From: Tannerella serpentiformis
Lineage (GTDB): Bacteria; Bacteroidota; Bacteroidia; Bacteroidales; Tannerellaceae
Direction of reading: 5' to 3'
Assembly (NCBI RefSeq): GCF_003033925.1
Contig: NZ_CP028365.1
Coordinates: 1 to 64,000 of the forward strand
Length of the DNA stretch: 64,000 nt
Position 1 is the stretch's first letter. Each line of letters begins with the position of its first letter. Both the position numbers and the translations under genes were made by a program. The notes under the pieces are model-generated. The model did not search any database. It was given only the letters and a program-made list of their open reading frames with translations, and was not told where the DNA came from. Shown in pieces: positions 17,632-58,946 of this stretch.

Positions 17632-18018
17632 GGTTCGGAACGTATTCTAATAGGTTCCGAGGTGGTTGTAATACGTTCCGGACGTGGTCTTGATACGTTC
17701 CGAACGTGGTTGTGATACGTCCAGAACGTGGTCTTGAGTACCTCGGAACGTGGTCTTGATACGTTCTGGACGTGGTCTTGATACGTTCCGGACGTGGTCT
17801 TGATACGTTCCGGACGTGGTGAAATACCCTTCGGAGGTGGTCATAACCACGTTCCGAACCGTATTAAATACCCCTCGGAACGGTATTAAATACCCCTCGG
17901 AACCATATTAAATACCCCTCAGGACGGTATTAAATACCTCTCGGAACCATATTAAATACCCCTCGGAACGTGGTTAAATAACGTCCGAAACGTGGTTGTG
18001 ACCACCTCGGAACGGTAT
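17632..18018. repeat. Intergenic array A: about 17 units of 22 bp
   Basis: Degenerate tandem units of about 22 bp, each starting with CGTTCCGGACG, CGTTCCGAACG or CCCCTCGGAAC and ending in a GGTCTTGATA or GGTATTAAATA tail. Two sub-types occupy the left and right halves. CGTTCCGAACG is a perfect 5-1-5 palindrome. The array ends exactly at the stop codon of the SDR gene. No reading frame here looks like protein. Confidence 0.75.
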
Positions 18019-18019
18019 T

Positions 18020-18790
18020 TCAGCCCTTCGGCGTGCGATGGATGGTGCGGGCGTCGGCCTGAGCGGTGGGCATGACGAGGATGTCCTGGAGGTCGACGTG
18101 CGCGGGGGCGGTGAGGGCGAAGCGGATGGTGCGGGCGATGTCGTCGGCCGAAAGCGGCGTGTAGCCGTCATAGACGCTGGCGGCGCGTTGGTTGTCGCCC
18201 TTGAAGCGGACGATGGAGAACTCCGTCTCCACGGCGCCGGGGCAGATGAGGCTCACGCGGATGCCGTAGGGCAGGAGGTCCTGACGCATGCCTTGGCTGA
18301 GGGCGCGCACGGCGTGCTTCGTGGCGCAGTAGACGGCGCCGCCGGGGTAGACCTCGCGGCCGGCGATGGAGCCGAGGTTGACGATGTGTCCAGCGCGGCG
18401 GGCGACCATGCCGGGGGTAACGGCGCGGGTGACGTAAAGCAGGCCTTTGATGTTGGTGTCGATCATGCGTTCCCAGTCGTCGGGGTCGCCCTCGTGGAGC
18501 GGCTCAAGCCCGACGGCCAGTCCGGCGTTATTGATGAGCGTGTCGATGGCCTGCCATTCGTCGGGCAGGCTGGCGATGGCCTCCTCGACGGACTCACGGC
18601 GACGGACGTCGAAGGTGAGCGTCAGGAAGCGGCTCTTGGGGTAGGTACGGGCCAGCTCGTCGCGGAGGGCTTCGAGGCGTTCGCGGCGTCGGCCGGTGAG
18701 GATCAGTTGGTGGCCATCTTGGGCCAATACGTGGGCCGTAGCCCGACCGATGCCTGCGGTGGCACCGGTGATCATTGTGATGGGTTGCAT
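18020..18790 (-). CDS. Short-chain dehydrogenase/reductase, YdfG-like
   Basis: A 256-residue classical SDR. The Rossmann motif is GATAGIG (residues 9-15), NNAG is at 87-90, and the catalytic triad appears as Ser141, Tyr154 and Lys158 (YCATK). Basic residues after the second strand (TGRRRERLE) indicate NADP preference. The sequence resembles YdfG, a 3-hydroxy acid (serine/threonine-type) dehydrogenase, but the true substrate is uncertain. Cytoplasmic. The start codon overlaps a TAGAGGG heptanucleotide tract, and the stop abuts array A, so both ends are bordered by repeats. No obvious operon partner. Confidence 0.85.
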   Translation of the reverse strand: MQPITMITGATAGIGRATAHVLAQDGHQLILTGRRRERLEALRDELARTYPKSRFLTLTFDVRRRESVEEAIASLPDEWQAIDTLINNAGLAVGLEPLHEGDPDDWERMIDTNIKGLLYVTRAVTPGMVARRAGHIVNLGSIAGREVYPGGAVYCATKHAVRALSQGMRQDLLPYGIRVSLICPGAVETEFSIVRFKGDNQRAASVYDGYTPLSADDIARTIRFALTAPAHVDLQDILVMPTAQADARTIHRTPKG

Positions 18791-18996
18791 AGAGGGTAGA
18801 GGGTAGAGGGTAGAGGGTGGAGGGTAGAGGGTGGAGGGTAGAGAGTAGAGTTTAGAGGGTAGAGAGTAGAGGGTAGAGGGTAGAGAGTGGAGGGGCGGGG
18901 GAAGGGTAGGAATAGGAGCCTGAGTCTTTCAAGTACCCGGCTCTACCCTCTACCCTCTACTCTCTACCCTCTACCCTCTATCTTCTATCTTCTGAC
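18789..18996. repeat. Two opposed TAGAGGG heptanucleotide tracts
   Basis: From 18789 to about 18892 the plus strand reads repeats of TAGAGGG with a few TGGAGGG and TAGAGAG variants. From about 18942 to 18996 the complementary CTACCCT repeats occur. The two tracts could pair into a long hairpin. The left one touches the SDR start codon; the right one encodes the C-terminus of the PAS protein. Confidence 0.8.
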
Positions 18997-19324
18997 CCCG
19001 GATCTTGTGATCCATCTCGAAGGGGATGACCATGGATAGCTCCATGAATCCCATGTATTGGCCGTCCTCGTACCAGGGGATCTGGTAGATGAGCTTCTTG
19101 CGACCGTTCTTTTCGATCGTGTAGACGTGTTTGCGTTCGTTGCGCATCATGTCTTCGAGCATCGTGCGGGCGGGCTCGGGGTGACAGTCGAGCACATTGC
19201 TGTCGATCAGCTCCTGTCCGGGCTTGAGGTTCACCTCGCGCGATTGGTTGTTCATATCGATGATCCGCCCCTCGCGGTCGCAAACCGTGACAGCGATGTC
19301 GGCTTCTTGGAAATACTTCATCAT
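18971..19324 (-). CDS. Small stand-alone PAS-domain protein
   Basis: About 117 residues forming a single PAS-like fold. It opens with a strand pattern ADIAVTVCDREGRIIDMNNQ, typical of the PAS start, and has a conserved central DSNVLDCHPEPA loop and late strands (KKLIYQIPWY, YMGFMELSMVIPF). Stand-alone PAS proteins bind small ligands or partners; no output domain follows. The last residues (about RGQKIEDRG) and the stop come from the neighbouring heptanucleotide repeat, so the C-terminus is probably not conserved. An ATG doublet leaves the start uncertain by one codon. Confidence 0.65.
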   Translation of the reverse strand: MMKYFQEADIAVTVCDREGRIIDMNNQSREVNLKPGQELIDSNVLDCHPEPARTMLEDMMRNERKHVYTIEKNGRKKLIYQIPWYEDGQYMGFMELSMVIPFEMDHKIRGQKIEDRG

Positions 19325-19352
19325 AAGGGGATCTAAAATCTAAAAGTGAAAG

Positions 19353-19390
19353 AAGCCCGGCCGCTCTCTACGAAAGGAGTGACCGGGCTT
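19353..19390 (-). terminator. Terminator downstream of gcvP
   Basis: AAGCCCGG (minus strand, from 19390) pairs with CCGGGCTT (ending 19353), with additional GC pairs inside. A T-rich CTTTCACTTTT follows on the minus strand. It lies about 50 bp after the gcvP stop. Confidence 0.6.
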
Positions 19391-19442
19391 ACCTGTTACA
19401 CTATATATAGGCGTACATTATATATAACGTACACATGGGGGA

Positions 19443-22304
<2,862 letters not shown>

Positions 22305-22326
22305 GTCTCTTTTGATTGTATGATGA

Positions 22327-24593: not shown

Positions 24594-24735
24594 CCACCTC
24601 GAAGCCCTTATGAAGTACGAAAACAGTCTCGCTCCACCTCGTTAAACCCTTACGGAGTACGAAAACAAGCCCGCTCCGCCCCGTTAAGCCCTCATGAAGT
24701 ACGAGAACAAGCTCACTCAGCCCTGTTAAGCCCTC
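24594..24735. repeat. Intergenic array B0: about 3.4 units of 42 bp
   Basis: Tandem units that start GTTAAGCCCT and contain a conserved GAAGTACGAAAACA segment. Successive copies are 42 bp apart. The sequence is unrelated to the adjacent array B but has the same period. Confidence 0.65.
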
Positions 24736-24756
24736 ATAGACCGTATTTTCAATCGA

Positions 24757-25181
24757 TCGGAACTACCCGAACGATAGTTGCATTCTGCACCTCTATTTCG
24801 GGAAGTTCCGAAAGCATGTACATATCTATATCATACTCTCGGAATTATCCGAAAGGAATAAACTCCTCGTATATATTCTTCGGATCTTCCCGATAAGCCC
24901 ATACTCTATTTTTAAGGCTTTCGGATCTTCCCGAAATTCTTTAATATGCATATCCAATCTTTCGGAAGTATCCGAATGGTCTTAAATTTCAATTTCAATT
25001 GATCGGAAACTCCCGAATGGATTTATACATGATGTTTATCCTGTTCGGGAATATCCGGAGCTTTCTATATATGATGCGAATAGCTTCGGAAGTTCCCGAA
25101 AGACTGTATCAGGATCTGAATTTGGTTCGGGAAGTTCCGATTGATCTATAAACTATGGAATAGGCTTTCGGGAAGTTCCGA
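24757..25181. repeat. Intergenic array B: 11 phased palindromes, 41 bp period, divergent spacers
   Basis: Eleven imperfect palindromes of the type TCGGGAAGTTCCGA or its reverse complement have centres at about 24763.5, 24804.5, 24845.5, 24886.5, 24927.5, 24968.5, 25009.5, 25051.5, 25092.5, 25133.5 and 25174.5. The step is 41 bp throughout, with one 42. The 27 bp between them is AT-rich and not conserved. The array occupies the divergent gap between the lipoprotein operon and gyrA. Confidence 0.9.
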
Positions 25182-25361
25182 ACGATTGGAAATATGCTCC
25201 GTAAGGCCTTATTCGGGGAGTATAAGCCTCTCGGAGACAGGTTTTAGGCCTTATCTCGTCCGTTACGTCAGGAAAACGATCTCCGCAGGCACGTCGCACG
25301 GACGAGCAAGCCCGTTGAAGTTCGTTTTAGGAGGTCTTCTTGCCCGTTATCCGAAAACCTG

Positions 25362-29599: not shown

Positions 29600-30100
29600 A
29601 ATCTCGACGAACGTTCCCGCCTAACCCTTGCCTCAAAATGCTATCCCCAAAAACGTATCCGCCTAAACCTTACCTCAAAATACATCTCCCCAAAACGTAC
29701 CTCACGAAAACCTGACCCTAAACACATTCTCGACCAACGTCCCCGCCTAACCCTTAACCCAAAACACACCTCCCCAAAACATACCCCACGAATCTTTGCC
29801 CCCAAAAGCGATCTCGACAAACGTTACCGCCCAATCCTTGCCTCAAAAAGCTATCTCGACCAACGTCCCCGCCTAATTCTTAACCCAAAATGCACTTCCC
29901 CAAAACATACCTCACGAATCTTTGCCCCTAAACACATTCCCGACAAATGCCCCCGCCTAACCCTTACCTCAAAACACACCCCCTCAAAACGTACCCCACG
30001 AATCTTTGCCCTAAAACACTATCCCCAAAAACGTACCCGCCAAACCCTTACCCTAAAATGCTATCCCAACGAACGCACCCGCCTAAACCTTGACAAAAAG
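29600..30100. repeat. Intergenic array C: about 12 units of 42 bp
   Basis: C-rich tandem units, for example CCTCAAAATGCTATCCCC followed by AAAAACGTATCCGCCTAA, repeat every 42 bp with two alternating sub-types (CGACCAACGTCCCCGCC and CCAAAACATACCCCACG). Because 42 is a multiple of 3, frames stay open and a 14-residue periodic pseudo-protein of over 200 residues appears; it is not a gene. No strong palindrome was seen in this unit. Confidence 0.8.
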
Positions 30101-31075: not shown

Positions 31076-31490
31076 TATCGCCCCCGCAACCCGTCCATTT
31101 GTTCTTAGATTTCAGTGTTCCACCCCGTAACCCACTCATTTGTTCTTGGATTTTGGCGTTCAGCCTGTCCACACGGCGCGTAAGCCATTCGGACGACAAG
31201 CTCCACCCCGTAACCCACTCATTTGTTCTTAGACTTTGGCGTTCAGCCTGTCCACGCGGCGCGTAAGCCATTCGGACGACAGGCTCCACCCCACAATCCG
31301 CCCATTTGTTTTTAGATTTCAGTATTTCACCCCGTAACCCACTCATTTGTTCTTAGATTTTGGCGTTCAGCCTGTCCACGCGGCGCGTAAGCCATTCGGA
31401 CGACAGGCTCCACCCCATAACCCACCCATTTGTTCTTAGATTTCAGTGTTTCACCCCATAACCCAACAAGTAATTCTTAGATTTTAGTTT
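31076..31490. repeat. Intergenic array D: 41 bp units with embedded 83 bp double units
   Basis: Units with the core CCACTCATTTGTTCTTAGAT repeat every 41 bp. Some are replaced by an 83 bp form that adds AGCCTGTC...GACAGGCT inverted arms. The array fills the whole gap between the RDD gene and the oxidoreductase gene. Confidence 0.75.
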
Positions 31491-31497
31491 TTAGCTT

Positions 31498-32395: not shown

Positions 32396-32704
32396 GCTAT
32401 ATATATAATGTACGCGCACGCGCGTTTCCTTATTATATGCGGGGGTAGGAGAGGAGACGTGGCGAGGATCGCACTTCAGATGGGCGCCGCGATCCCTCAG
32501 AGGCCACGAAAAGCACTCCCACCGGTCTGTTGAAAAATAATTCTGACCCCCTACCCTATTCGCTTTTCTAAATGTTTGTACATTCGCCCCCGTTCCTACA
32601 GCGGTAGGGCGCTTGAATGCTTTTTGAGGTCAGAGAGGCGTTGAGTCGCACGTGTGGGGCGCCATCCTTGGCAAGTTTTGAAGTCCGCCAAACGATGCGG
32701 TGCG

Positions 32705-33045
32705 AAACCCGCCGGGTTTTGGGCTTTGCCACTCGACATGAAGCAAAACCCGCCGGGTTTTGGGCTCTGCCACTTGACATGGAGCGAAACCCGCCGGGTT
32801 TTGGGCTCTGCCACTCGACATGGAGCGAAACCCGCCGGGTTTTGGGCTCTGCCACTCGACATGGAGCGAAACCCGCCGGGTTTTGGGCTCTGCCACTCGA
32901 CATGGAGCGAAACCCGCCGGGTTTTGGGCTTTGCCACTCGACATGGGGCGAAACCCGCCGGGTTTTGGGCTTTGCCACTCGACATGGAGCGAAACCCGCC
33001 GGGTTTTGGGCTTTGCCACAAGTTTGAATGAAACCCGGCGGGTTT
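32705..33045. repeat. Intergenic array E: nine 41 bp units with a 7-1-7 palindrome
   Basis: AAACCCGCCGGGTTT, a perfect palindrome around one central C, is centred at 32712, 32753, 32794, 32835, 32876, 32917, 32958 and 32999. A ninth copy at 33038 is in the opposite orientation (central G). Spacers of the kind TTGGGCTCTGCCACTCGACA are nearly identical. The step is exactly 41 bp except the last (39). The array lies just upstream of a DUF6261 gene. Confidence 0.9.
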
Positions 33046-33196
33046 TGCTCAGATCTGTGGCAAACGCAGACCGTTCGCCGATCGGTCGTGGGGCGCAGCG
33101 CACGTCTCGGATCCGAAAAGTGACGCGTATTTCTTGCATCTATCTGATCTATGCTTATTTTTGATCGTTTTTATACCCATTCAAATTAATGACACA

Positions 33197-34159
33197 ATGG
33201 ACGAAATCATTGAAATTGATCCCATAGGGATGAAAAAGCTCGACAACGGGCAACACGTACATTTTCACGGCAGGGCTTACGATTTAGTCAACGAATACGA
33301 GCCTGCAAAAATCGGTCTCCCGGAACCGCTCAAAACGGAGTGGAAAGGCAATATCGATACCGAAGAAGACATCGGTAAGGAGGTGGTCGCAGAGACGCTA
33401 ACCAAAACGATGAACAAAAAGAACGAGGAGCGTGATCGCATTCTTACTTACATCTTCCGGCTGATTCGTGCTTGCGTCTTCTCACCGGAAGAGGCCGAGG
33501 AGAAGGCTGCGTCGGAGTTGGCACTGGTAATCAACAGCTACGGACGGGTGCAGCGCGAGTCGTTCGACCGCCAATCGTCGCATATCGATGGCCTGCTGGT
33601 CGACCTGAAGAAAACCGAGAACGCTGCGCACGTGACCACGTTGCGCCTCACGTCTGCCCTCGCGAAATTGGAGGCGGCCAACGGGGAATGCAAAAAGCTC
33701 TATCTGCAGAGTGTCAAGAACCCGCACCGAAGCAATTTGCCGACGGCGGCTGAAGTGCGACCGAAGACGGATGCCGTTTATAACCGCGTGATCTTCATGC
33801 TCAAAGCGGCCTATGTCTCCGGCGTCGCGTCGGTCGATAAAGCAGCGCTCAAGAAGCTCGCCGAGCATCTGAACAGCCTCGTCGACCGGACCGATAAGGC
33901 TTACCACCAGAGTCTGGCTCAGAAAAAATCGGCGGCAGACAAAAAGAAGAAGAAACCGGATACCCCGCCCCAACCGAAAGAGCCGAAGCCCAAGAAACCG
34001 AAGGAGGGCGACAAGCCGGATATCCATCTCCCCGAGCCGGAGGCGCCGAAGAAGCCCGAGGGTGGCGGCGAAGGCAAGAAACCGGACACGGGCAGTGGCG
34101 GCGGCGGTGGCGCGCCGGGTGGCGGAAGCAGTCCGGAGATCACTTTGCCGGAAGAGTAA
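33197..34159 (+). CDS. DUF6261 family protein, proline/lysine-rich tail
   Basis: I take the ATG at 33197 (MDEIIEIDPIGMKKLDNGQH), which aligns with the start of the paralogue at 49696-50469. The first 250 residues are helical, with a conserved RPKTD motif and a final helix. The last ~75 residues are low-complexity, Pro/Lys/Gly-rich and disordered, ending in ITLPEE, and are missing in the paralogue. DUF6261 is a Bacteroidetes family of unknown function. The gene lies directly downstream of array E, just as the paralogue lies directly downstream of array G. Confidence 0.75.
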   Translation: MDEIIEIDPIGMKKLDNGQHVHFHGRAYDLVNEYEPAKIGLPEPLKTEWKGNIDTEEDIGKEVVAETLTKTMNKKNEERDRILTYIFRLIRACVFSPEEAEEKAASELALVINSYGRVQRESFDRQSSHIDGLLVDLKKTENAAHVTTLRLTSALAKLEAANGECKKLYLQSVKNPHRSNLPTAAEVRPKTDAVYNRVIFMLKAAYVSGVASVDKAALKKLAEHLNSLVDRTDKAYHQSLAQKKSAADKKKKKPDTPPQPKEPKPKKPKEGDKPDIHLPEPEAPKKPEGGGEGKKPDTGSGGGGGAPGGGSSPEITLPEE

Positions 34160-35709: not shown

Positions 35710-35777
35710 CGCCGAACAAAGGCCGACGCAGAACGTGGAACAAGCCGACCTTTGACTTGTCTCAAAGCCAATATTCA

Positions 35778-36548
35778 ATGGGAAAAGTTATCGCATTAGC
35801 CAATCAAAAAGGCGGCGTGGGAAAGACCACGACAACGATCAATCTGGCTGCCTCGCTGGCTGCGCTGGAGAAGCGCGTGCTCGTCATCGACGCCGATCCG
35901 CAGGCCAACGCCTCCTCCGGATTGGGTGTCGACATTAAGAATTTACCCACCTCGCTCTACGAATGCCTTATCAATGGCGACGAGCCGCAGGAGGCCATCG
36001 TGCGCACCGAACTCGATGGACTCGAGGTGCTCCCCTCGCACATCGATCTGGTCGGCGCCGAGATAGAAATGCTCAACATGGAGCGGCGGGAACAGATTTT
36101 GAAGCGCGTCGTCCAGCCCCTCCGCGACAGCTACGACTTCATCCTCATCGATTGCTCGCCCTCACTCGGACTGATCACCGTCAACGCCCTCACGGCCGCA
36201 GACGCAGTCATCATCCCCGTGCAATGCGAATATTTTGCCCTTGAGGGTATTAGCAAGCTGCTGAACACGATCAAAATCATCAAGTCGAAGCTCAACCCAT
36301 CCCTCGAGATCGAAGGTTTTTTGATCACCATGTATGACGCACGCCTCCGCGTGGCCAATCAGATCTACGAAGAGGTCAAGCGCCCCTTCCAAGACTTGGT
36401 TTTCAAGACCGTCATCCGCCGCAACGTCAAACTGGTCGAGGCCTCCAGCTTCGGCCGACCCATCCTCCTCTACGACGCCGAGTCGCAGGGCTCGACGAAC
36501 CACATGCAGCTCGCCCAGGAGATTATCGAAAAGAACACCACCGCATAA
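35778..36548 (+). CDS. parA: Chromosome-partitioning ATPase ParA/Soj
   Basis: I start at the ATG at 35778 (MGKVIALANQKGGVGKTT), where the family usually begins. It encodes the deviant Walker A motif KGGVGKTTT at residues 11-19, a Walker A' VLVIDADPQ, and a Walker B region FILIDCSPSLG. The 256-residue size and absence of an N-terminal HTH indicate a chromosomal ParA/Soj. The ATPase forms a gradient on DNA and moves the ParB-bound origin region. parB follows after 13 bp. Promoter element TACCTTTG lies 69 bp upstream. Nothing unusual. Confidence 0.95.
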   Translation: MGKVIALANQKGGVGKTTTTINLAASLAALEKRVLVIDADPQANASSGLGVDIKNLPTSLYECLINGDEPQEAIVRTELDGLEVLPSHIDLVGAEIEMLNMERREQILKRVVQPLRDSYDFILIDCSPSLGLITVNALTAADAVIIPVQCEYFALEGISKLLNTIKIIKSKLNPSLEIEGFLITMYDARLRVANQIYEEVKRPFQDLVFKTVIRRNVKLVEASSFGRPILLYDAESQGSTNHMQLAQEIIEKNTTA

Positions 36549-36561
36549 ATACGCACCTCTT

Positions 36562-37464
36562 ATGGCCAAAGCCACACGCAACAGATTAGGTCGCGGACTC
36601 GACGCACTGCTCGCCCCGCCAGACGAAATTGTGACGAGCGGATCGTCGTCCATTAACGAAATAGAGCTTGATCGCATCGAGCCCAACCCCGGACAGCCAC
36701 GCTCCATTTTCGAAGAAGAATCACTCGAGGAATTGGCCCAGTCCCTCCGCACATACGGCGTCATACAGCCGATCATACTCAAAGAAAAAGGCGATGGCCA
36801 TTACTTGATCATCGCGGGCGAGCGCCGCTATCGGGCTGCCGAAAGGATCGGGTTAGACAAGATCCCCGCCTACATCAAGACCGCCGAAGACGAGAATATC
36901 GCTGAGCTGGCCCTCATTGAGAACATCCAGCGCGAAGATCTGAACGCCATCGAAACGGCCCTCGCTTATCAGCGGCTAATCGACGCCAACGGATTTACGC
37001 AAGAGCAACTCAGCGAGCGCGTGGGCAAGAAGCGCGCTACGGTGGCTAACTACCTGCGTTTGCTCAAGCTCCCGGCGGAGATTCAGGTCGGACTCAAGGA
37101 TAAGCGCATCGACATGGGGCACGCTCGTGCCCTGCTCTCGGTGGAGGATCCGGAGGTGCAATTGGCCCTCTACGAGCAGATTTTGACGCAGGGACTCTCG
37201 GTGCGCACCGTCGAAGAGCTGGCTCGCAACGCCTCCGCCGAGGTCAAGCACCAACAGGCCGAGGCCGACCCTGAGCGCCGTCCCCACAAGCTCCTCCCGG
37301 ATGAATTTAAGATCCTCAAGGAGCATCTGGCCGCTTTTTTTCAGACGAAAGTGCGCCTCACTTACGACGAACGAAACGGCAAGGGGAAGATCACCATCCC
37401 CTTTGCCTCAGAGCAAGAATTGGAAGGCATCATGCGCCTACTGGACGGCATGAAGCAGAGTTAA
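36562..37464 (+). CDS. parB: Chromosome-partitioning protein ParB/Spo0J
   Basis: A 300-residue ParB. An N-terminal segment with GRGLDALL is followed by the CTP-binding ParB/Srx domain (PNPGQPRSIF, then the GERRYRAAE motif). The central HTH for parS (TQEQLSERVGKKRATVANYL) and a C-terminal dimerisation domain follow. ParB loads onto parS sites as a CTP-dependent clamp and recruits SMC. It is 13 bp downstream of parA in the same operon. I did not find parS with certainty in the window. Confidence 0.95.
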   Translation: MAKATRNRLGRGLDALLAPPDEIVTSGSSSINEIELDRIEPNPGQPRSIFEEESLEELAQSLRTYGVIQPIILKEKGDGHYLIIAGERRYRAAERIGLDKIPAYIKTAEDENIAELALIENIQREDLNAIETALAYQRLIDANGFTQEQLSERVGKKRATVANYLRLLKLPAEIQVGLKDKRIDMGHARALLSVEDPEVQLALYEQILTQGLSVRTVEELARNASAEVKHQQAEADPERRPHKLLPDEFKILKEHLAAFFQTKVRLTYDERNGKGKITIPFASEQELEGIMRLLDGMKQS

Positions 37465-42229: not shown

Positions 42230-42310
42230 CTGTATACCCATGAGCCTGGCGTGATCATTCGTCGGCCTGTTGCTCGGGGGGACGCTTCGGAATACCCGGG
42301 TGAAAGCGCT

Positions 42311-42535
42311 GGCAGGCGGCCTGCCAAAGTCGTCGGAGTGTTCGGTGACTCTGGCAGGCCGCCTGCCAGGACTATCGGAGACTCTGGTAACGGTGTCAGG
42401 CCGCCTGCCAGGACTATCGGAGACTCCGGTGACGGTGGCAGGCCACCTGCCAGGACTATCGAACACTCCGGTAACGCTGTCAGGCCGCCTGCCAGAGTCA
42501 CCGAACACTCCGACGATGTTGGCAGGCGGCCTGCC
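42311..42535. repeat. Intergenic array F: six palindromes exactly 42 bp apart
   Basis: GGCAGGCCGCCTGCC, a 7-1-7 palindrome, or one-base variants, is centred at 42318, 42360, 42402, 42444, 42486 and 42528. The first spacer (AAAGTCGTCGGAGTGTTCGG onward) is the reverse complement of the last, whereas the three inner spacers share one orientation. The array lies between convergent genes rel and murF. Confidence 0.9.
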
Positions 42536-42610
42536 AACGTCACCAAGTCAAAATAAGCCGCCCATTCGCGCACCGGGGTCGCCGCAAGCCCATTCCAATA
42601 AAGAGGCCCG

Positions 42611-46630: not shown

Positions 46631-46690
46631 TTTAGAGGGTAGAGAGTAGAGAGTAGAGGGTAGAGGGTAGAGGGGGGGGAGAATAGAGGG
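46631..46690. repeat. TAGAGGG tract at the cvfB start
   Basis: Heptanucleotide repeats (TAGAGGG, with TAGAGAG variants) run immediately upstream of the ATG, in the leader or promoter region. On the coding strand they read CCCTCTA. Confidence 0.75.
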
Positions 46691-46749: not shown

Positions 46750-49554
46750 TCACTTTTCGTTTTTAGCTGTTAGCTCTTTGTACAGGTTCATCAGGTGGGC
46801 CACGATGGTAGGCTCCGGGGCGTCGGCGGGGAGGCCGTAGAGGCGGAGCACGGCGGCGTCGTTCAGCGAGTGGGCGCGGCGCAGGTCGGGCGGCATGGCC
46901 GCGGCGTCGTAGAGGTCGGCCAGCGAGCTGTCCGGATACTTGGCGCGGGCGTCAAGGATGGCCTCGGCCGTGGCTTCGATCTTCGCCCGGTCAGCGTCCG
47001 TGGCCGTGGGCCAGGGGAAATTGTTGTAGACAATCGTGTTGGAATAGAGATAATCGCTTTTCAGACGTCCACAAACAACGCGCATCCAAGCATTATGTAG
47101 CAGAGAAGTGAGTATGCCAAAGTGGTAGAGCGTAGCCGAAGGAATCAGAGAGACACGATCGGAGCAGATTACATCTGGCGTCATATAACCGATGGGCACA
47201 TACTGTCTGCGCTCCGAAGAAACTCGCGGTACAAGTAAATAATTCGAGTCAGGCATATTCTCCACTTGAAAACGGGTCGGCTTGTCAGCCAATTTCAGTG
47301 TAGCCCCCCTTTTGCTGTTCAGACGAAATTGCCTGACGGCCTCTACGCGTTTATAGGCATGCGGCATGCGACGCAGTTCGGCGGGAGAGCAGTCTCCCAA
47401 CCAAAGGCAGTAGCGGGGTTTGTTATTAATAAACTCTTGCGCTCCGTAAAATGGGCGGAAATATTTAGCAGCCTCCGGTTCGAGTTTGATAAAAGCGTCG
47501 CGCTCCTCCGCCGTAAAGAGGTAGTTCCCATCGTCGATCGGCTGATTTCCAATTCCCATTTCAGGCACTTCGCAAAGGGGCTTTGTCCGGCTTTCTACAA
47601 ACACATCGTCCGCGTCCATCAGATAGGCGTTGATATGCTTGACTTCGATATACTTTCCCTTGCCGATATAGATCCGAGGCGGGAAGTCGTTCGGGGTCAT
47701 GCTGAAGCCGATAATCACACAGTGCACATGGGCCTTTTCGGCCATCTCGCTATCCCAGCGAAAGGTGCGGTAGGCAAAGTCGAAATGCATACCGTCGGCG
47801 AAGAGTGGTTTCCAAAGTATACTGATACTCTCTCCTTGTACGATGGAATTAGTCGACACAAAGGCGGCGCGGATAGATGTGTCTTTCATTACATCTACAG
47901 CTTTCTTAAACCAGCATGAGACATAATCCAAATCTCCCACGTTCTTCCAATCCGTCCCAAAGACCCCAATCAGATCCTCTTTCTGCGCCTTACTCATCCA
48001 TCGCGCTCCCACAAACGGCGGGTTGCCGATGATGTAGTCCGGCGCGGGGCAGACGGTACGCCAGTCGAGGCGCAGGGCGTTGTCTTCGGCGATATGCGCC
48101 TCGGAGCGGAGGGGGAAGAAGTCGAGATCGTGGTGGACAATCGATGCTGTCTCGCGCTTCATGCCCGTCTCGGCGATCCACATCGCGGTGCGCGCCACCA
48201 CGACGGCAAAGTCGTTGATCTCGATCCCGTAAAAGCGATCGATCGAGACGCGGATCGGCGTGAAGGCCTCGCCCAGGACGGCCATGTCGGCCGTGTCGAC
48301 AGCCGCGGCGCGCACCACCTCGTTCTCGAGGCGGCGCAGCGAGAGGTAGGTCTCGGTCAGGAAGTTGCCCGATCCGCAGGCCGGGTCGAAGAAGGTCATA
48401 GCGGCTATGCGCTCCTGAAAGGCCAGCAGCTCCCGACGGCGGTGACGCGGTTCGGCGATGGCTTTGAGGTTGTCAAACTCGTCGCGCAGGCGGTCGAGGA
48501 AGAGCGGGTCGATGACGCGGTGAATGTTCTCCACCGAGGTGTAGTGCATGCCGCCCGTGCGACGCGTTTCGGGGTTGAGGGTGCTCTCAAAAACGGCGCC
48601 GAAGATGGTGGGCGAGATGCCGCTCCAGTCGAATCCCTCCGAGGCGTCGATCATCAGCGCATGAATGACTTCGGGACTGAACTCGGGCACCTCCCAGGCG
48701 TAGGCCTCCACGGACTTATCGGCGAAGAGCCCGCCGTTAACATAGGGCAGCGGCGCAAACTTGCGCTCATACGGGTCACGCTCGTCGTGCGGCGTGTTGA
48801 GGACACGGAAGAAGCGAATCAGCTCGAGGCGGAAGAGGTCGGGAGATTTGATGAGCGGTTCGAAATGGCGAAAGAAGAAGTTTCGCTTGCCGAAGAGCCC
48901 CGCGTCGTCTGCATAGAGGCAGAAGACGATGCGCACGCAGAGCAGGTTGAGGCTGCGCAGGGTCTCGGGCGACTTGGGGTCGATGTATTTCTCTAAGAGC
49001 AGGTCGTAAACCTTACTAATGCGTTCGCCCGCTTCCACTGAGAGCGCTTCCTCCTGCCGGCGGATGCTCTCCACCTTGGGATTGACGAGGAAGTCGAGGC
49101 GGTCGAGCTCCTCGGCGAGGTTGGCCAGGGTGACGACGCGTGGCGGTGCCTCGGGCGTCTCCATGTCGTAGACGCGGATACGAGCAAAGTCGCTGATGAC
49201 GATCCATCGGGCCCGCTCGGAGTAGGGCAGCATGGAGTTGTAGCGCGCCGCTTGGCGGAAGGGGGTCAGCAGCGTGCCGTCGCTCTGACGTTGCGGCGTG
49301 TCGAGGTCTACGCCGAGGCTCTTCTGCTCGATCAGTACGTGAGTCGACGAGATGAAGGCGTCCATAAAAGACTTGTGTCCGAGCTTGACGGAGCGCTCGA
49401 AGCGGATCAACTCAAAGGGGTTGGGTGCACCGAGCACCTGGCCAAGCATTTCGAGCCAGAAGGTCTGCGTGTCGCTCTTCTCGTCGCCCCTTCCGGCCCA
49501 TCGCTGGGCGAAGGCGCGGGCGGCGTCTGGGTTGTATAGGGGTTGCATAGTCAT
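46750..49554 (-). CDS. MmeI-like type IIL restriction-modification enzyme
   Basis: A single-chain enzyme of about 934 residues. N-terminally, a nuclease-like motif MDAFISSTHVLIEQKS gives Asp65, Glu76 and Lys78 (D-X10-EXK), close to the D-X9-EXK spacing of MmeI. A helical spacer follows, then the adenine methyltransferase with FFDPACGSGNFLTETYL (near 386) and IIGNPPFVG (near 508). A target-recognition domain and a helical C-terminus complete it. One protein would cut and methylate one specific site. The recognition domain region (about 47040-47960) is visibly more AT-rich than the rest, suggesting exchange of specificity by recombination. I chose the first ATG; a TTG precedes it. Host self-protection is by its own methyltransferase. 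Confidence 0.85.
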   Translation of the reverse strand: MTMQPLYNPDAARAFAQRWAGRGDEKSDTQTFWLEMLGQVLGAPNPFELIRFERSVKLGHKSFMDAFISSTHVLIEQKSLGVDLDTPQRQSDGTLLTPFRQAARYNSMLPYSERARWIVISDFARIRVYDMETPEAPPRVVTLANLAEELDRLDFLVNPKVESIRRQEEALSVEAGERISKVYDLLLEKYIDPKSPETLRSLNLLCVRIVFCLYADDAGLFGKRNFFFRHFEPLIKSPDLFRLELIRFFRVLNTPHDERDPYERKFAPLPYVNGGLFADKSVEAYAWEVPEFSPEVIHALMIDASEGFDWSGISPTIFGAVFESTLNPETRRTGGMHYTSVENIHRVIDPLFLDRLRDEFDNLKAIAEPRHRRRELLAFQERIAAMTFFDPACGSGNFLTETYLSLRRLENEVVRAAAVDTADMAVLGEAFTPIRVSIDRFYGIEINDFAVVVARTAMWIAETGMKRETASIVHHDLDFFPLRSEAHIAEDNALRLDWRTVCPAPDYIIGNPPFVGARWMSKAQKEDLIGVFGTDWKNVGDLDYVSCWFKKAVDVMKDTSIRAAFVSTNSIVQGESISILWKPLFADGMHFDFAYRTFRWDSEMAEKAHVHCVIIGFSMTPNDFPPRIYIGKGKYIEVKHINAYLMDADDVFVESRTKPLCEVPEMGIGNQPIDDGNYLFTAEERDAFIKLEPEAAKYFRPFYGAQEFINNKPRYCLWLGDCSPAELRRMPHAYKRVEAVRQFRLNSKRGATLKLADKPTRFQVENMPDSNYLLVPRVSSERRQYVPIGYMTPDVICSDRVSLIPSATLYHFGILTSLLHNAWMRVVCGRLKSDYLYSNTIVYNNFPWPTATDADRAKIEATAEAILDARAKYPDSSLADLYDAAAMPPDLRRAHSLNDAAVLRLYGLPADAPEPTIVAHLMNLYKELTAKNEK

Positions 49555-49695
49555 CAAGTAGTTATGCGCCTTGCGGCGCGGGAGTCAGGGGCTATGCCCC
49601 GGTAGTTATGCGCCTGCGGCGCGGTAGTCAGAGGTAGTTATGCGCCTGCGGCGCGGTAGTGGAGGCTGCGCCCCAGTGGTTATGTGGCCGGGGAG
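49555..49695. repeat. Dispersed repeats (TAGTTATGCGCC with small hairpins)
   Basis: Several copies of GTAGTTATGCGCCTGCGGCG occur in a row, with GCGCC/GGCGC hairpins. Related TAACTAC-type copies lie at 2407-2465, 43945-44005, 60478-60570 and 63690-63750, always in short gaps between genes and often just before a start codon. Confidence 0.65.
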
Positions 49696-50469
49696 TTAGG
49701 GGGTGGGTGTTGGCGCGGCCTTGGGCTTGCGGAGGGCCATGCGATGGGATTGGCGCTGCTTGTGCGTCATGCGGGTCTGGCTCACGCGTTCGTTGATATA
49801 GCTGGCGAATTGGGCGATCGCCTCCCGATCGACGGGCGGCTTGCCGACGAAGTGCGACATCTGTAGGTGCTGGACGATGCGGCCGTAGACCTCGTCCGTC
49901 TTCGGGCGGAGCTGGGTGAGCGACGGCCGCTTTTTCTCGATCCGCTCCTCCGACCGCTCGTTCATCAGCGCGCGCACCTCCTCTTTGACCTTATCCAGCA
50001 GCCCGACGGCTTCTTCGAGGCCCAGTCGGGTGATGTGCACCGCGTGTTCCGGCTTCCTCAGGTCGTGCAGTAGCGCTTCGATACGCGCGGGCTTGACGCC
50101 GATCCCTTCGGCCTGGATGCGCTTGCCGACGCGCAGCTGGAGGTACAGATCTTCGGCCGACTCCACCGCCTCTGCCCGGGGCGAGAGGCGCATGGCGCGC
50201 ACCACGGCCAGGATGAACGACACCAGGCGGTCGCATTCGGCGTCTTTCTGCTGGAGCGCCTTCGTCCGGCGACTCGTGCGCGTCTCCTTGATCATCTCGA
50301 TCGCCTCCTGAATGCATTGCTGGTACTCCGCAGCCAACGCCGCCGGTATCCCGAGCTTTTCCGCGCCCACCTCCGCGATGCGACCGCCGATCGTGGTGTG
50401 GAAATCGGTATGCGAGGCGTTGTCCAGCCTGTACAGACTGAGTTTTTGTATTTGGATAATCTCTTCCAT
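49696..50469 (-). CDS. DUF6261 family protein
   Basis: Starting at the ATG 50467-50469 (MEEIIQIQKLSLYRLDNASH). The 257-residue protein is helical throughout, with the RPKTDEVY motif shared with the paralogue at 33197-34159 and a basic C-terminal helix (RMTHKQRQSHRMALRKPKAA). It lacks the long Pro/Gly-rich tail of the paralogue. A -7 element TACCTTTG at 50549-50556 and array G lie directly upstream. Function unknown. The recurrence of an array upstream of each DUF6261 gene is notable. Confidence 0.75.
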   Translation of the reverse strand: MEEIIQIQKLSLYRLDNASHTDFHTTIGGRIAEVGAEKLGIPAALAAEYQQCIQEAIEMIKETRTSRRTKALQQKDAECDRLVSFILAVVRAMRLSPRAEAVESAEDLYLQLRVGKRIQAEGIGVKPARIEALLHDLRKPEHAVHITRLGLEEAVGLLDKVKEEVRALMNERSEERIEKKRPSLTQLRPKTDEVYGRIVQHLQMSHFVGKPPVDREAIAQFASYINERVSQTRMTHKQRQSHRMALRKPKAAPTPTP

Positions 50470-50548
50470 GACAGTGCTTATCTCATTTGAATGTAATCCG
50501 GTGAAGTCGGCGCCCTTTCGAGTCTCTCCTACCCCACCCCAGTGCGCG

Positions 50549-50556
50549 CAAAGGTA
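50549..50556 (-). promoter_or_regulatory. -7 element TACCTTTG for the DUF6261 gene
   Basis: Perfect TAnnTTTG match on the minus strand, 80 bp before the start codon and 22 bp from the first palindrome of array G. Confidence 0.45.
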
Positions 50557-50577
50557 AAAATCGATTGTATATGGCAT

Positions 50578-50932
50578 GCTTTTACATTGAAAGCATCCGA
50601 CTTGCATGTCCGGTTATATGCTTTTAGCATAAAAGGAACCTTCGTCTCATGTATATACCTTGCTTTTACAGTAAAAGCATCGCATGTCACCTGACTAAGC
50701 CTTGCTTTTATAGTAAAAGGACGCAATCATTCATCGACTACTCCCGTGTTTCACATCAAAAGCATGGAATATACCATGCAAGTTCTATCCTTTTACACGA
50801 AAAGCATCGGATATACGTGTTATATACTATCCTTTTACTTCAAAAGCATACAACTTGCATGTGCTATCAAATCCTCTCATATTAAAAGCATAAAAACATG
50901 CACTGCATATTGGATCCTTTTACATTAACACG
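50578..50932. repeat. Intergenic array G: nine 17 bp palindromes at 42 bp, divergent spacers
   Basis: GCTTTTACAGTAAAAGC is a perfect 8-1-8 palindrome. Versions of it, some degenerate, are centred at 50586, 50628, 50670, 50712, 50755, 50797, 50839, 50881 and 50924: steps of 42 bp (twice 43). The 25 bp between them is not conserved. The array occupies the gap between the DUF6261 gene and nspC. Confidence 0.9.
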
Positions 50933-51042: not shown

Positions 51043-52200
51043 CTACGACATGCGGCTACGGTAATCCTCGTAGGTGAACGTGCGGAAAACCTCCGGGCGA
51101 TCGGCGCCGAGGGGCACGATGGCCAGCGACGGGTGGCGGATGCCGTTGAACATGGTCGTTTTGACGGTCGTGTAGTGGATCATGTCCTCGAAGATGATCG
51201 GATCGCCAACGCGGAGCGGCTGCTCGAACGACCAGTCGCCCATGAAGTCGCCGCTCAGGCAGCTGCAGCCGCCGATGCGGTACGTGGGGCGCCCCTCGAT
51301 CGGCTCCGTGGCGCCGCGGACAGTGGGTTTGTAGGGCATTTCGAGGCAGTCGGGCATGTGGCACGTGAAGGAGGCGTCGATGATGGCCGTGGTGATGCCG
51401 CCGTTCTCGACGATGTCCACGACGGTCGTTTGCAGGTAGCCCGTCTGCCAGAAGAAGGCCGAGCCGGGCTCGAGGATGAGCGAGAGATTCGGGTGGGCGG
51501 CGCGGAAACGGCGGAGGGTGTCGACGAGCAGGTCGACGTCGTATCCGGCGCGCGTCATCAGGTGGCCGCCGCCCATGTTGAGCCAACGCACCTGAGGCAG
51601 CCAGCGCCCGAAGCGCTCCTCGACAGCGCGGAGTGTCTGCACAAGATCCTCGGCCGACGATTCGCAGAGGGTGTGGAAGTGCAGCCCCTCGACACCCGCG
51701 GGCAGTCGGTCGGGCAACTTGTCGGCGGTGATGCCCATGCGCGATCCGGGGGCGCAGGGGTTGTAGAGCGCCGTGCCGACCTCGGAATACTCGGGGTTGA
51801 TGCGCAGGCCGCACGAGACCCTTGCGCCGTCGGCTTCGACCATCGGGCGGAAGCGTTCGTACTGGGTGAGGGAGTTGAAGGTGATGTGGCTGCTGCAGCG
51901 GAGTAGCTCGGGGAAGTCGGCCTCGGTGTAGGCGGGCGAATAGGTGTGGGCGGGGGTGCCCATCTCGTCGAGGACGAGGCGCGCCTCCCAGACGGAGCTG
52001 GCCGTGGCGCACGGGATGTATTCGCGGACGATGGGGAAGACGTGCCACAGGGCGGAGGCTTTCAAGGCGAGGATGATCTCCACGCCGGCGCGCTCCTTGA
52101 CCTCACGGATAAGCGAGAGGTTGCGGCGGAGCAGGGCTTCTTCAATGACGTAACAGGGGGAGGGGTAGAGGGTAGAGGGTAGAGGGTAGAGGGTAGACAT
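51043..52200 (-). CDS. nspC: Carboxynorspermidine decarboxylase
   Basis: A 385-residue alanine-racemase-fold PLP decarboxylase. The PLP lysine is in EIILALKASALWHVF (Lys47 from the chosen start). CESS and GGGHLMT motifs and the FEDMIHYTTVKTTMFNG block near the C-terminus are typical of NspC, which makes norspermidine/spermidine in the alternative polyamine pathway of Bacteroidetes. Homologues begin only a few residues before PSPCYV. Here the codons before it are a CCCTCTA heptanucleotide tract, and the only nearby ATG lies in the tract (MSTLYPLPST). Changes in repeat number would shift the frame. Confidence 0.85.
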   Translation of the reverse strand: MSTLYPLPSTLYPSPCYVIEEALLRRNLSLIREVKERAGVEIILALKASALWHVFPIVREYIPCATASSVWEARLVLDEMGTPAHTYSPAYTEADFPELLRCSSHITFNSLTQYERFRPMVEADGARVSCGLRINPEYSEVGTALYNPCAPGSRMGITADKLPDRLPAGVEGLHFHTLCESSAEDLVQTLRAVEERFGRWLPQVRWLNMGGGHLMTRAGYDVDLLVDTLRRFRAAHPNLSLILEPGSAFFWQTGYLQTTVVDIVENGGITTAIIDASFTCHMPDCLEMPYKPTVRGATEPIEGRPTYRIGGCSCLSGDFMGDWSFEQPLRVGDPIIFEDMIHYTTVKTTMFNGIRHPSLAIVPLGADRPEVFRTFTYEDYRSRMS

Positions 52201-52275
52201 AATAGAGGGTAGAGGGTAGACATAATAGAGGGTAGAGGGTAGACATAATAGAGGGTAGAGGGTAGAGGGTAGAGC
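52152..52275. repeat. TAGAGGG tract overlapping the nspC start
   Basis: Heptanucleotide TAGAGGG repeats interrupted by three TAGACATAA segments. The start of nspC lies inside it. The tract also fills the gap to the helicase gene upstream. Confidence 0.8.
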
Positions 52276-54633: not shown

Positions 54634-54660
54634 GAAGAGGGATGAATATGCGTATTCCGG

Positions 54661-55062
54661 CCAACACCCCGTCGGGGGCTAAAACGCGCCGCCTTTTGCA
54701 GGCCAACACCCCGTCGAGGTCAAAAACACGCCGCCTTTTGCACACCAACACCCCGTCGGGGCCCAAAACGTGCCGCCTTTTGCAGGCCAACACCCCGTCG
54801 GGGTCAAAAACACGGCCCGTTTTGCAGGCCAACACCCCGTCGGGCACTAAAACGCGCCGCCTTTTGCACACCAACACCCCGTCGGACACTAAAACGCGCC
54901 GCCTTTTGCACACCAACACCCCGTCGGGGTCAAAAACACGCCGCCTTTTGCACACCAACACCCCGTCGGACACTAAAACACGCCGCCTTTTGCACACCAA
55001 CACCCCGTCGGGCACTAAAACACGCCGCCTTTTGCACACCAACACCCCGTCGGGCACAAAAA
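54661..55062. repeat. Intergenic array H: about 9.6 units of 42 bp
   Basis: Units CCAACACCCCGTCGGGGTCA followed by AAAACACGCCGCCTTTTGCA repeat every 42 bp. ACCCCGTCGGGGT is a 6-1-6 palindrome. Units are well conserved. Because 42 is divisible by three, both strands carry open 14-residue-period frames that are not genes. Confidence 0.9.
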
Positions 55063-55117
55063 CGGATTGTCTCAGGTATCCGCCCCGTCCCACAGGGTAT
55101 CCATCCGCGAAACACAA

Positions 55118-55165: not shown

Positions 55166-55208
55166 TTCAGTGCTTACCTGTTTCGCGAAGCGGGGGGTAC
55201 ACCTCGCT

Positions 55209-55771: not shown

Positions 55772-55861
55772 CTGTTATCGTAGTTAATGATGCATGATTC
55801 GCCGGTTGCCCGGATTCATAATTCCCAATCGACCATTGACAAGTCTCGAGTCAGCGATCGT

Positions 55862-57226: not shown

Positions 57227-57254
57227 GATTCTTTTCTATTGTAGTTATAAGTGG

Positions 57255-58538
57255 TTATGCGTGTTCAAGCGCCTGCTCCACGTCGGCCAGGATGTCCTCG
57301 ATGTCTTCGATACCGACGGAGAAGCGGATCAGATCCGGAGCCACACCGGCGGCCTTCAGTTGCTCGTCGGTCAACTGGCGATGCGTGTGGCTCGCGGGAT
57401 GGAGCACCGACGAACGCGCGTCGGCTACGTGGGTAACGATGGCCACCATCCGCAGGGCATCCATGAACCGGACAGCCTGCTCGCGTCCGCCCTTCAAGCC
57501 GAGCGTCAGCACGCCACACGTGCCGTTGGGCAGGTACTTCTGCGCCGCCGCGTAATGCTTATCGCCCTTCAGGCCGGGGTAATGCACCCATGCCACCTTC
57601 GGGTGTTGGCTGAGGTATTCGGCTACGGACAACGCATTGGCGCAGTGGCGCGGCACACGCAGGTGCAGCGTTTCGAGGCCGAGGTTCAGCAGGAAGGCGT
57701 TCATCGGCGCAGGGATGGCGCCGAGGTCGCGCATGAGCTGTACCACCGCCTTGGTGATGTAGGCTGCGCTGCCGAACCGTTGCGTGTAGACGATGCCGTG
57801 GTAGGAGGCGTCAGGGGTGGTGAGGCCGGGAAACTTCTCCGCGTGCGCCTCCCAGTCGAAGCGGCCGCTGTCGACGATAGCGCCGCCCACAGACGTCGCG
57901 TGGCCGTCCATGTACTTCGTCGTGGAGTGGATCACGATGTCGGCACCCCATTCGAAGGGTCGGCAGTTGATGGGCGTGGCGAAAGTGTTGTCCACGATGA
58001 GCGGCACGCCGTGGCGGTGGGCTATGCGGGCAAACTTCTCGATGTCCAACACCGCGCAGGCAGGGTTAGCGATGGTCTCGCCGAAGACGGCCTTCGTGTT
58101 CGGTCGGAAGGCGCGGTCGATCTCCTCCTCTGGTGCGTCTTGGTCGACGAAGGTGAAGTCGATCTGCATGCGCTTCATCGTCACGGCGAAGAGGTTGAAC
58201 GTGCCGCCGTAGATCTCCGAGGCGCAGACGACATGGTCGCCCGCGCTGCAGAGGTTCAGTATGGCGTAAAACGAAGCCGTCTGGCCCGATGCGGTGAGCA
58301 GGGCTGCTACGCCGCCTTCGAGTGCGGCGATCTTGGCCGCCACGGTGTCGTTCGTCGGGTTTTGCAGCCGGGTGTAGAAGTATCCGGACGCCTCGAGGTC
58401 GAAGAGTCGCCCCATCTCGTCGCTTGATTCGTACTTGAACGTGGTGCTCTGATAGATCGGCATCACACGCGGCTCACCGTTCTTCGGCTGCCAGCCGCCT
58501 TGCACACACAGTGTGCCTCGCTTCATTGATTGCTTCAT
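57255..58538 (-). CDS. metY: O-acetylhomoserine sulfhydrylase
   Basis: A 427-residue PLP enzyme of the Cys/Met metabolism family. A GVAALLTASGQTASFYAI segment binds the cofactor phosphate, and the PLP lysine sits in HSTTKYMDGHATSVGG (about residue 207). The length and YQSTTFKYESSDEMG start fit O-acetylhomoserine/O-acetylserine sulfhydrylases, which make homocysteine from sulfide. A -7 element TACTTTTG lies 39 bp upstream. Array I begins about 110 bp upstream of the start. lpdA follows. Confidence 0.93.
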   Translation of the reverse strand: MKQSMKRGTLCVQGGWQPKNGEPRVMPIYQSTTFKYESSDEMGRLFDLEASGYFYTRLQNPTNDTVAAKIAALEGGVAALLTASGQTASFYAILNLCSAGDHVVCASEIYGGTFNLFAVTMKRMQIDFTFVDQDAPEEEIDRAFRPNTKAVFGETIANPACAVLDIEKFARIAHRHGVPLIVDNTFATPINCRPFEWGADIVIHSTTKYMDGHATSVGGAIVDSGRFDWEAHAEKFPGLTTPDASYHGIVYTQRFGSAAYITKAVVQLMRDLGAIPAPMNAFLLNLGLETLHLRVPRHCANALSVAEYLSQHPKVAWVHYPGLKGDKHYAAAQKYLPNGTCGVLTLGLKGGREQAVRFMDALRMVAIVTHVADARSSVLHPASHTHRQLTDEQLKAAGVAPDLIRFSVGIEDIEDILADVEQALEHA

Positions 58539-58576
58539 GTGTTATTGTAGTGTACTGTTTTTACTTATCGCGGCGG

Positions 58577-58584
58577 CAAAAGTA
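58577..58584 (-). promoter_or_regulatory. -7 element TACTTTTG for metY
   Basis: Perfect TAnnTTTG match on the minus strand, 39 bp before the start codon. Confidence 0.5.
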
Positions 58585-58646
58585 GACCGATAAAGAGGCT
58601 GCACAACCGCCGGGCGTGGCAGGCGTCATGTAGGCCCGACCCCACC

Positions 58647-58946
58647 CGTGCGACACGATGACACTTCTCTGAACTTTTAGGCCTTATCGTGCGACACGAT
58701 AGCACTTCTCGGAACTTTTAGGCCTCATCGTGCGACACGATAGCGTCTCAATGGCCATTTAGGTCCCGTCGTGTGACACGATGGCACCTCTCGGAACTTT
58801 TAGGCCCCACCCGTGCGACACGATAGCACTTCTCTGAACTTTTAGGCCCTATTGTGCGACACGATGGCACTTCTCTGAACTTTTAGGCCCTATCGTGCGA
58901 CACGATGGCAGCTCTCTGAACTTTTAGGCCCTACCCGTGCGACACA
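58647..58946. repeat. Intergenic array I: about 7 units of 41-42 bp
   Basis: Units CGTGCGACACGATAGCACTT followed by CTCGGAACTTTTAGGCCTCAT recur every 41-42 bp. ATCGTGCGACACGAT is a 6-3-6 palindrome crossing the unit boundary. One variant reads CGTGTGACACGAT. The array lies between metY and creD; a copy of the GC-rich dispersed repeat follows at 58970-59005. Confidence 0.85.

Follow-up and report, generated by a model that had tools for sequence, protein, structure and literature searches.

What holds the period of tandem arrays constant when their sequences are not? This question is raised by the first 64 kb (hereafter the window) of the single-contig 3.01-Mb genome of Tannerella serpentiformis (NZ_CP028365.1, positions 1 to 64,000), for which a preliminary description had listed nine intergenic arrays sharing a period of 41-42 bp but no sequence. 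All nine are present within about 50 bp of the positions reported, as judged from Tandem Repeats Finder (TRF) and from dyad positions. The letters vary between loci and the step stays close to four helical turns, which suggests that spacing and mirror symmetry are read rather than a fixed sequence. We tentatively favour, at somewhat less than even confidence, the explanation that a large class of repeat elements with many families has these arrays as its bodies, with a spacing that would be held by selection through a putative dimeric reader acting at the DNA level.

The period distribution was determined in a 464-kb sample, consisting of the window and 20 evenly spaced 20-kb stretches and amounting to about 15% of the genome. 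A lag scan, whose array counts depend on the thresholds used (match 0.62 over 84 bp), gave 30 and 44 segments at lags 41 and 42, respectively (five array segments are heptamer repeats), and 4, 3, 3, 1, 0 and 0 segments at the neighbouring lags 40, 43, 44, 39, 38 and 45. After the five heptamer segments and the arrays of shorter primitive period had been dropped from the period and dyad counts, 62 of the 64 arrays with a primitive period of 28-75 bp showed a period of 40-43 bp (three at 40, 26 at 41, 30 at 42 and three at 43 bp, with one each at 48 and 63 bp). In terms of density, the 62 arrays found in 464 kb make up 4.2% of the sampled bases. Grouping of TRF arrays (score at least 80) by smallest period yielded 30 groups at 41 bp and 22 at 42 bp. 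The distances between recurring k-mers peaked at 41, 42, 82, 84, 123, 126 and higher multiples, whereas lag 83 was scarce (211 vs 2071 and 2337), which indicates that most arrays keep to a single period, either 41 or 42. Based on the concentration of lag scan and primitive-period counts at 41-42 bp, chance periods were rejected as an account. The shared period claimed earlier therefore holds, and the broad spread of periods that would speak against it was not seen in the 15% sample.

The accompanying claim that the arrays share no sequence needs to be restricted: no sequence is common between families, but families recur at several loci. The array at 32702-33019 had 14 matches, distributed over nine genome loci including itself, and the identity amounted to 84% at two of the others. 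None of 60 relatives showed a match to this family when 32660-33060 was searched. Further dyads are repeated in the sample, several of them at two to four loci. The longest TRF array listed for the sample is a 1.5-kb array of 82-bp units (L013, 4730-6274).

Palindromes had also been noticed in several of the arrays, and the larger sample bears this out. A dyad with a pair fraction of at least 0.6 was found in 44 of 62 arrays, compared to a mean of 11.0 in a null model in which unit columns were permuted and the best centre was re-chosen each time, and 32 of the 62 exceeded the 95th percentile of a null of this kind. On average, a second, weaker dyad lies half a period away, with pair fractions of 0.34 (period 41) and 0.35 (period 42) vs 0.243 (standard deviation 0.024) and 0.247 (0.020) in the genome itself, and of 0.37 and 0.34 vs 0.252 (0.022) and 0.239 (0.026) in relatives. 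In three diverged arrays, weak dyads were likewise detected midway along the linkers (z 2.5, 3.9 and 4.2); global mirror pairing of these linkers was not found. In view of the half-period dyad, strong and weak sites may alternate at a basic step of about two helical turns. Symmetry is also maintained over changing sequence within one frame: the 31 distinct inner 9-mers of TTGC-N9-GCAA sites, some of which lie outside arrays, pair at 0.69 vs 0.40 ± 0.04 after re-pairing (maximum of 1000: 0.53). In the same frame, inner lengths of 8 (0.23 vs 0.24) and 10 (0.33 vs 0.26 ± 0.06) gave no significant excess. Two further frames, both of which match many unrelated sites, showed no excess (GGC-N9-GCC; 440 distinct, 0.25 vs 0.24) and a small one (TTC-N10-GAA; 122 distinct, 0.30 vs 0.25 ± 0.02).

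The independence of spacing and sequence can be followed in the TTCGGRANNTYCCGAA family, which forms five arrays near 24.8, 753, 1502, 2160 and 2586 kb with 11, 11, 10, 11 and 12 dyads, respectively. Of the 50 steps among these 55 dyads, 46 measure 41 bp and four 42 bp; in the window array (24756-25182), the steps are 41, 41, 41, 41, 41, 41, 42, 41, 41 and 41 bp. The runs were built with steps of 38-45 bp allowed, and positions were obtained independently by matching TTCGGGAAGTTCCGAA, which has 22 genome-wide matches with up to two mismatches, all within five arrays. The intervening linkers of 25-26 bp are AT-rich and nearly unrelated, with an identity of 0.43 within and 0.41 between arrays vs 0.36 ± 0.07 for shuffled linkers; three adjacent linkers in the last array form the exception. 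The linkers as a whole share a weak inverted consensus, approximately TTGWWACA-N3-TGTWWCAA. Neutral divergence this deep would be expected to leave many insertions and deletions in the linkers, unless these were never copies of each other. Within the dyad, CGG...CCG is kept at 98-100% (the search used that pattern, with up to four mismatches), while positions 6 and 11 pair at 0.33, less often than the 0.50 expected (z -2.9). By this pattern, the dyad looks like a putative protein site rather than a hairpin. Nearly fixed spacing with free linkers was also found in a second family, at 50578-50932. Both window arrays are too diverged to be called as a whole by TRF, which reports just 50829-50928 (period 43) for the second.

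The five TTCGGRANNTYCCGAA (TTCGG) arrays, referred to here as Y, are flanked on both sides by inward-pointing 42-bp units, the X arms, as an average over the loci. Phase and orientation of the X arms agree over the five loci, with an identity of 0.384 at phase 0 compared to 0.256 ± 0.017 (maximum 0.288) at other phases; in opposite orientation, the best phase reached 0.318 and the mean was 0.246. At one locus the arms form a strong inverted repeat, scoring 99 vs at most 24 in 400 random pairs, and two more loci scored 29 and 22, above the 99th percentile (18). Consequently, two of the arrays described before, 24594-24735 and 24757-25181, do exist, but they do not look like separate arrays: with inward arms flanking all five Y arrays, the first appears as the left arm and the second as the centre of a single composite element, whose right arm follows upstream of gyrA (Table 1).

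The same spacing was found beyond this genome. The gyrA loci of 80 named relatives were fetched regardless of arrays, and 11 of the 14 arrays at these unselected loci had a period of 41-43 bp; the array-bearing relatives carry the labels Tannerellaceae, Parabacteroides and Dysgonomonadaceae. Further sampling of seven array-bearing genomes revealed at least one such array in each. In these stretches, 31 of 33 arrays fell at 40-43 bp, with an array density that is biased by the selection for an array at the gyrA locus. Twenty stretches from other families of the order held four arrays, one at 42 bp and three at 52 bp, all three in one genome. The 52-bp arrays (about five helical turns) of the order-level relative G044 lie at 1-273, 15434-15770 and 17053-17585 of stretch L228. 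A further 20 stretches, including the three nearest genomes, contained a single array, of 36 bp. A second, shorter array class of 21-23 bp is also common, both in the genome sample and in relatives. Thus, the idea that spacing rather than sequence is shared holds in the genome sample and in relatives alike.

At the gyrA locus, the upstream gap measures 836 bp here. In all three near relatives compared, the aligned ends are 300-301 bp apart, with 26 residues of one neighbour left unaligned, and the gap holds no such dyad. The locus lies outside the AACGTGAG subset, and the difference may reflect a gain here or a loss in the relatives. Among the matches listed, from which records of the genome itself may be omitted, the nearest GyrA is that of a Tannerella sp. 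metagenome-assembled genome (89%). The near relative G014 carries a homogeneous 17-unit array of the TTCGGRANNTYCCGAA dyad family with a 41-42 bp step, in which TTCAGAA..TTCTGAA is replaced by TTCGGAA..TTCCGAA.

With respect to genomic context, a crude, home-made gene finder assigned 48 of 70 array segments to intergenic positions, 16 to open frames and 6 to edges. The 48 intergenic segments are divided into 34 in tandem, 8 in divergent and 6 in convergent gaps; the corresponding numbers for all gaps of 200 bp or more are 81/29/16. In this comparison of raw counts, a preference for gene orientation is not clear. Coding repeats were rejected as a general account because 41 is not a multiple of 3 and 48 of the 70 segments are intergenic. 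The 16 open-frame segments include heptamer arrays and four GGCGACA-family arrays.

For a subset of arrays, mobile shells could be identified. The end AACGTGAGTTCGA has 26 exact copies in the genome vs none for a reversed control, and it is only in this subset that shells share terminal inverted repeats with an insertion sequence (IS) of the same genome. Eight bounded AACGTGAGTTCGA elements of 129-392 bp were counted, omitting pairs found by a lax rule (up to four mismatches: L182, L183, L187 and L188) as well as an additional start further inside L176. Exact target duplications flank five of the eight, of 4 bp in L172, L173 and L177 (AAGG, ACTC and AAGT) and of 5 bp in L176 and L178 (ACGGA and AAGCA); L175, L184 and L186 showed no clear duplication. 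Dyads differ among the arrays enclosed by this end (ATTTCCTGAGGAAAT, TTGCAACACTGTTGCAA and TTGCGGGACTCCCGCAA), and two shells that carry it (L184 and L186) are array-free. An element of 1026 bp with AACGTGAGTTCGA ends, the left one base off, contains a 212-codon frame that matches DDE_Tnp_1_3 (E 2e-27) and scores 128.1 against the IS982 model, just below the cut-off of 130, with only part of the model covered; an exact target duplication was not found for this element. By our reading of the flank comparison, 5 of 55 array clusters of this genome lie within a AACGTGAGTTCGA-type shell, and for 29 of the 55 neither flank was matched in the roughly 0.5 Mb of DNA searched. Inverted flanks exceeded the 95% null in 17 of 85 clusters, where about 4 were expected. 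The mobile-element option of the preliminary description accordingly applies to a subset only, with shared ends, different arrays and target duplications. In stretch L010, a 68-bp inverted pair (6719-6786 and 7235-7302) surrounds a 41-bp array, with 37 and 43 BLAST pieces of its flanks elsewhere in the sample; it may represent another type of shell. In another genome, a 41-bp array lies between the two copies of a 37-bp inverted pair, AATAATCCCGGATTTGTCATTAGG... (L071, 6203-6239 and 6672-6708), and an exact target duplication was not seen.

According to the explanation we favour, small repeat elements of many families would spread within each genome, by transposition or recombination, and turn over there. 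Most of the bodies are seen to be chains of short dyad sites with centres 41-42 bp, or about four turns, apart and on average a weaker dyad half-way. A putative dimeric protein of DNA binding or recombination, or a few related ones, would assemble on successive dyads along one face of the helix, and the constant spacing would be held by selection at the DNA level because of this assembly. Copies would be homogenised by recombination between units, and new families could arise when a shell acquires a different dyad. For the option of a co-evolving protein, which had been raised before, the support is indirect, namely fixed spacing with unrelated linkers and dyad symmetry over changing sequences in one frame.

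Several observations weigh against this explanation. The reader protein itself is a putative one. No dyad with a pair fraction of 0.6 was found in 18 of the 62 arrays of this genome, and mobile shells are demonstrable for a minority of arrays. Compensation within arrays, which looked strong at first sight (154/252), was rejected as a general rule for hairpins, as the proper null supports one family at most: without the GGCGACA family (four loci), it amounts to 0.46 vs 0.45 ± 0.10 under a column-selection null, and in relatives to 0.49 vs 0.46 ± 0.14. According to the crude gene finder, the GGCGACA-family arrays themselves fall into open frames at each of their four loci and may be coding there. 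Between the two halves of the Y-array linkers, co-variation did not exceed what column composition gives (z -1.8 to 1.8), and linker symmetry is therefore that of the weak shared consensus. Inverted flanks pass the 99th percentile of random pairs at three of the five Y loci; the remaining two scored 15 and 11, the score of 15 being that of the locus upstream of gyrA. A pure 41-bp step drifts from 42 bp (4 x 10.5), which means that helical phasing would be possible between neighbours, not across a whole array. The RAYT transposase (PF01797), a candidate driver, occurs in just two of nine array-bearing genomes and was rejected in this role.

The main competing explanation, a mutational mechanism whose step is fixed, is in our view possible, if improbable. 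Replication or recombination in this clade would make 41-42-bp duplications by its own geometry, template switching in quasi-palindromes would perfect the dyads, and the arrays would be functionless. Such an origin agrees with the homogeneity of many arrays within their locus, with their neutrality to context, with the one family tested being genome-specific (14 own matches, 0/60 relatives) and with compensation that does not exceed the null outside one family. It accounts less readily for the 50 steps of 41-42 bp at five loci despite nearly unrelated linkers, where indels would be expected if the linkers were ever homologous, for dyad bases kept in the pattern of a protein site, and for an arm phase and orientation common to five loci. 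We regard as likewise doubtful a chromatin-like code, in which hundreds of intergenic arrays (by extrapolation) would be read by a putative protein family through dyads and four-turn spacing with a two-turn sub-step, while the sequence drifts into dozens of families; spacing and symmetry would then be what is conserved. That the arrays are passive cargo of non-autonomous transposons, i.e., miniature inverted-repeat transposable elements (MITEs), in the manner of BOX or BrickBuilt, appears quite unlikely; the dyads would then serve transposition only, and the period would go back to a small number of ancestral units whose sequences have since diverged. The copies and duplications of the AACGTGAGTTCGA elements, the transposase fragment between the same ends and the array-free shells speak for it, whereas the 29 clusters without a flank match, the limited number of clusters with inverted flanks (17/85), the period shared by different shells and the different dyads bounded by one end type speak against it.

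An action at the RNA level, by transcript hairpin arrays affecting mRNA stability or termination, is very unlikely in our view. Single strands of two arrays do fold better than shuffled sequences (DNA parameters, z -8.6 and -4.5), but arm mismatches are balanced (76 G.T and 94 A.C) and lack a strand-specific wobble signature, and hairpins need no spacing precise to 1 bp. Moreover, Rfam returned no match at gathering scores in 17000-60600, and known RNA families were rejected on this basis. Together with the conserved CGG...CCG around under-paired positions 6 and 11 and with the lack of a clear orientation preference, the balanced mismatches favour a reading at the level of DNA rather than RNA. 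The capture of 25-bp spacers between short repeats, similar to clustered regularly interspaced short palindromic repeats (CRISPR), is suggested by the 16-bp repeat and the fixed-length, nearly unrelated linkers of the Y arrays; it is so improbable as to be almost negligible, since most other arrays shown have homologous units, and neither the one Y linker tested out of 50 nor one repeat-pair pattern had an exact match in viral contigs.

The nearest known systems, judged from the passages considered here, are MITE464/PgRS and BrickBuilt of Porphyromonas, and the parallel to this genus proposed in the preliminary description proved apt. Klein et al. cite tandem repeats of 41, 23 and 22 nt for P. 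gingivalis W83, and describe MITE464/PgRS of this species as 41-nt repeats with flanking segments that are themselves repetitive (PMC4596501). This arrangement resembles the X-Y-X composites, seen at five loci as an average, and the name-giving length of 464 compares to 385-470 bp for 10-12 dyads here. However, MITE464/PgRS is presented in those passages as a single element type, and they do not mention a spacing that stays fixed while the sequence is free. Its ends are GAGACTGTTGCA/TGCAACGGTCTC (PMC4596501), and the end GAGACYRTTGCA had no exact match in the 464-kb sample. BrickBuilt, an intergenic MITE-like element whose leader and tail enclose a minisatellite, is likewise comparable; it is one family with a 23-nt unit and 19 copies, reported there only from P. 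gingivalis and P. gulae (PMC4596501), and differs from the 41-42-bp arrays in its unit, the 21-23-bp arrays being nearer by period. In their AACGTGAGTTCGAT form, the shells share a 13-base end with MITE239 (ACGTGAGTTCGAT; PMC4596501, Table 2). While 236- (sic) and 700-type elements seem to be without mini- or microsatellites inside (PMC4596501), the same end, of MITE239/ISPg3 type, bounds 40-42-bp arrays here.

A description of a period shared across unrelated arrays was not found among the open-licence papers listed, as judged by titles and the beginnings of abstracts. Repetitive extragenic palindromes and the mosaic elements built from them (REP/BIME), which are associated with RAYT, are dispersed intergenic palindromes; the present arrays differ in the sparse occurrence of RAYT noted above. 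A looser parallel is given by the BOX elements of Streptococcus pneumoniae, whose boxB module has a length of about 45 bp. In these, two end modules enclose a variable number of tandem boxB copies, and mobilisation by an IS has been proposed (PMC3049150). The likeness lies in end modules around variable tandem middle modules; boxB is one module type, and a sequence-free period is not described in the passages at hand.

What is added here is a step that recurs in many unrelated sequences and across several genera, a spacing that persists where linkers have almost no sequence in common, and a mirrored composite. In P. gingivalis, 41- and 23-nt repeats are on record as separate families in the passages considered (PMC4596501), whereas here the same step recurs in unrelated sequences. 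If the spacing is selected, the arrays would offer a rare case for testing helical geometry apart from sequence, and a handle on a putative nucleoid or recombination protein of Bacteroidales. If the origin is mutational, they would expose a duplication process with a fixed step.

Table 1. Arrays and composite-element parts in the window (positions refer to the 64-kb stretch).
Feature	Position	Strand	Remarks
Two arrays, period 22/44, two-turn class	17648..17970	.	Similar 22-bp unit in a near relative (L123)
Left X arm of apparent composite mirror-symmetric element	24594..24755	+	Inward 42-bp units; TRF 24602-24737, period 42; described before as array 24594-24735
Y array	24756..25182	.	11 dyads TTCGGRANNTYCCGAA; 25-26-bp linkers, nearly unrelated
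Right X arm, inverted, inward, upstream of gyrA	25183..25309	-	Three rows of 42 bp; end position approximate
Array, period 42, higher-order 84/126/210, without strong palindrome	29601..30091	.	TRF
Array, period 41-42 (TRF 41/83/124)	31119..31492	.	TRF
Array, period 41, dyad AAACCCG-C-CGGGTTT	32702..33019	.	TRF
Array, period 42, dyad TGGCAGGC-N-GCCTGCCA	42307..42536	.	TRF
Diverged array, 9 GCTTTTACATTAAAAGC-like dyads at 42-43 bp	50578..50932	.	Linkers weakly related (0.43 vs 0.37 shuffled)
Array, period 42, short dyad CCCCGTCGGGG	54661..55063	.	TRF
Array, period 41 (124), dyad CGTGCGACACG	58647..58945	.	TRF

The genes around the arrays are ordinary and include gyrA, creD and genes for a RelA/SpoT protein, a Mur ligase and a UvrD helicase. 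Two DUF6261 genes (33134-34159 and 49696-50607) each adjoin a 41-42-bp array, and gaps with arrays lie on either side of a parA/parB pair (35757-37464). Just beyond one end of an MmeI-like restriction-modification gene (46750-49557), a heptamer array is located. Such arrays of TAGAGGG/CTCTACC, telomere-like in appearance, occur in the window at 18790-18894, 18941-18980, 46633-46674 and 52163-52274, with one facing inverted pair (18790-18980), and also in L009, L010, L014, L016, L018 and L024. Finally, GTAGTTATGCGCCTTCGGCGC is a dispersed 21-22-bp repeat, present in the window at 49558-49628 and 60506-60575 and in L020 at 12500-12520 and 12917-12938, which is also found as an inverted pair around one 41-bp array.

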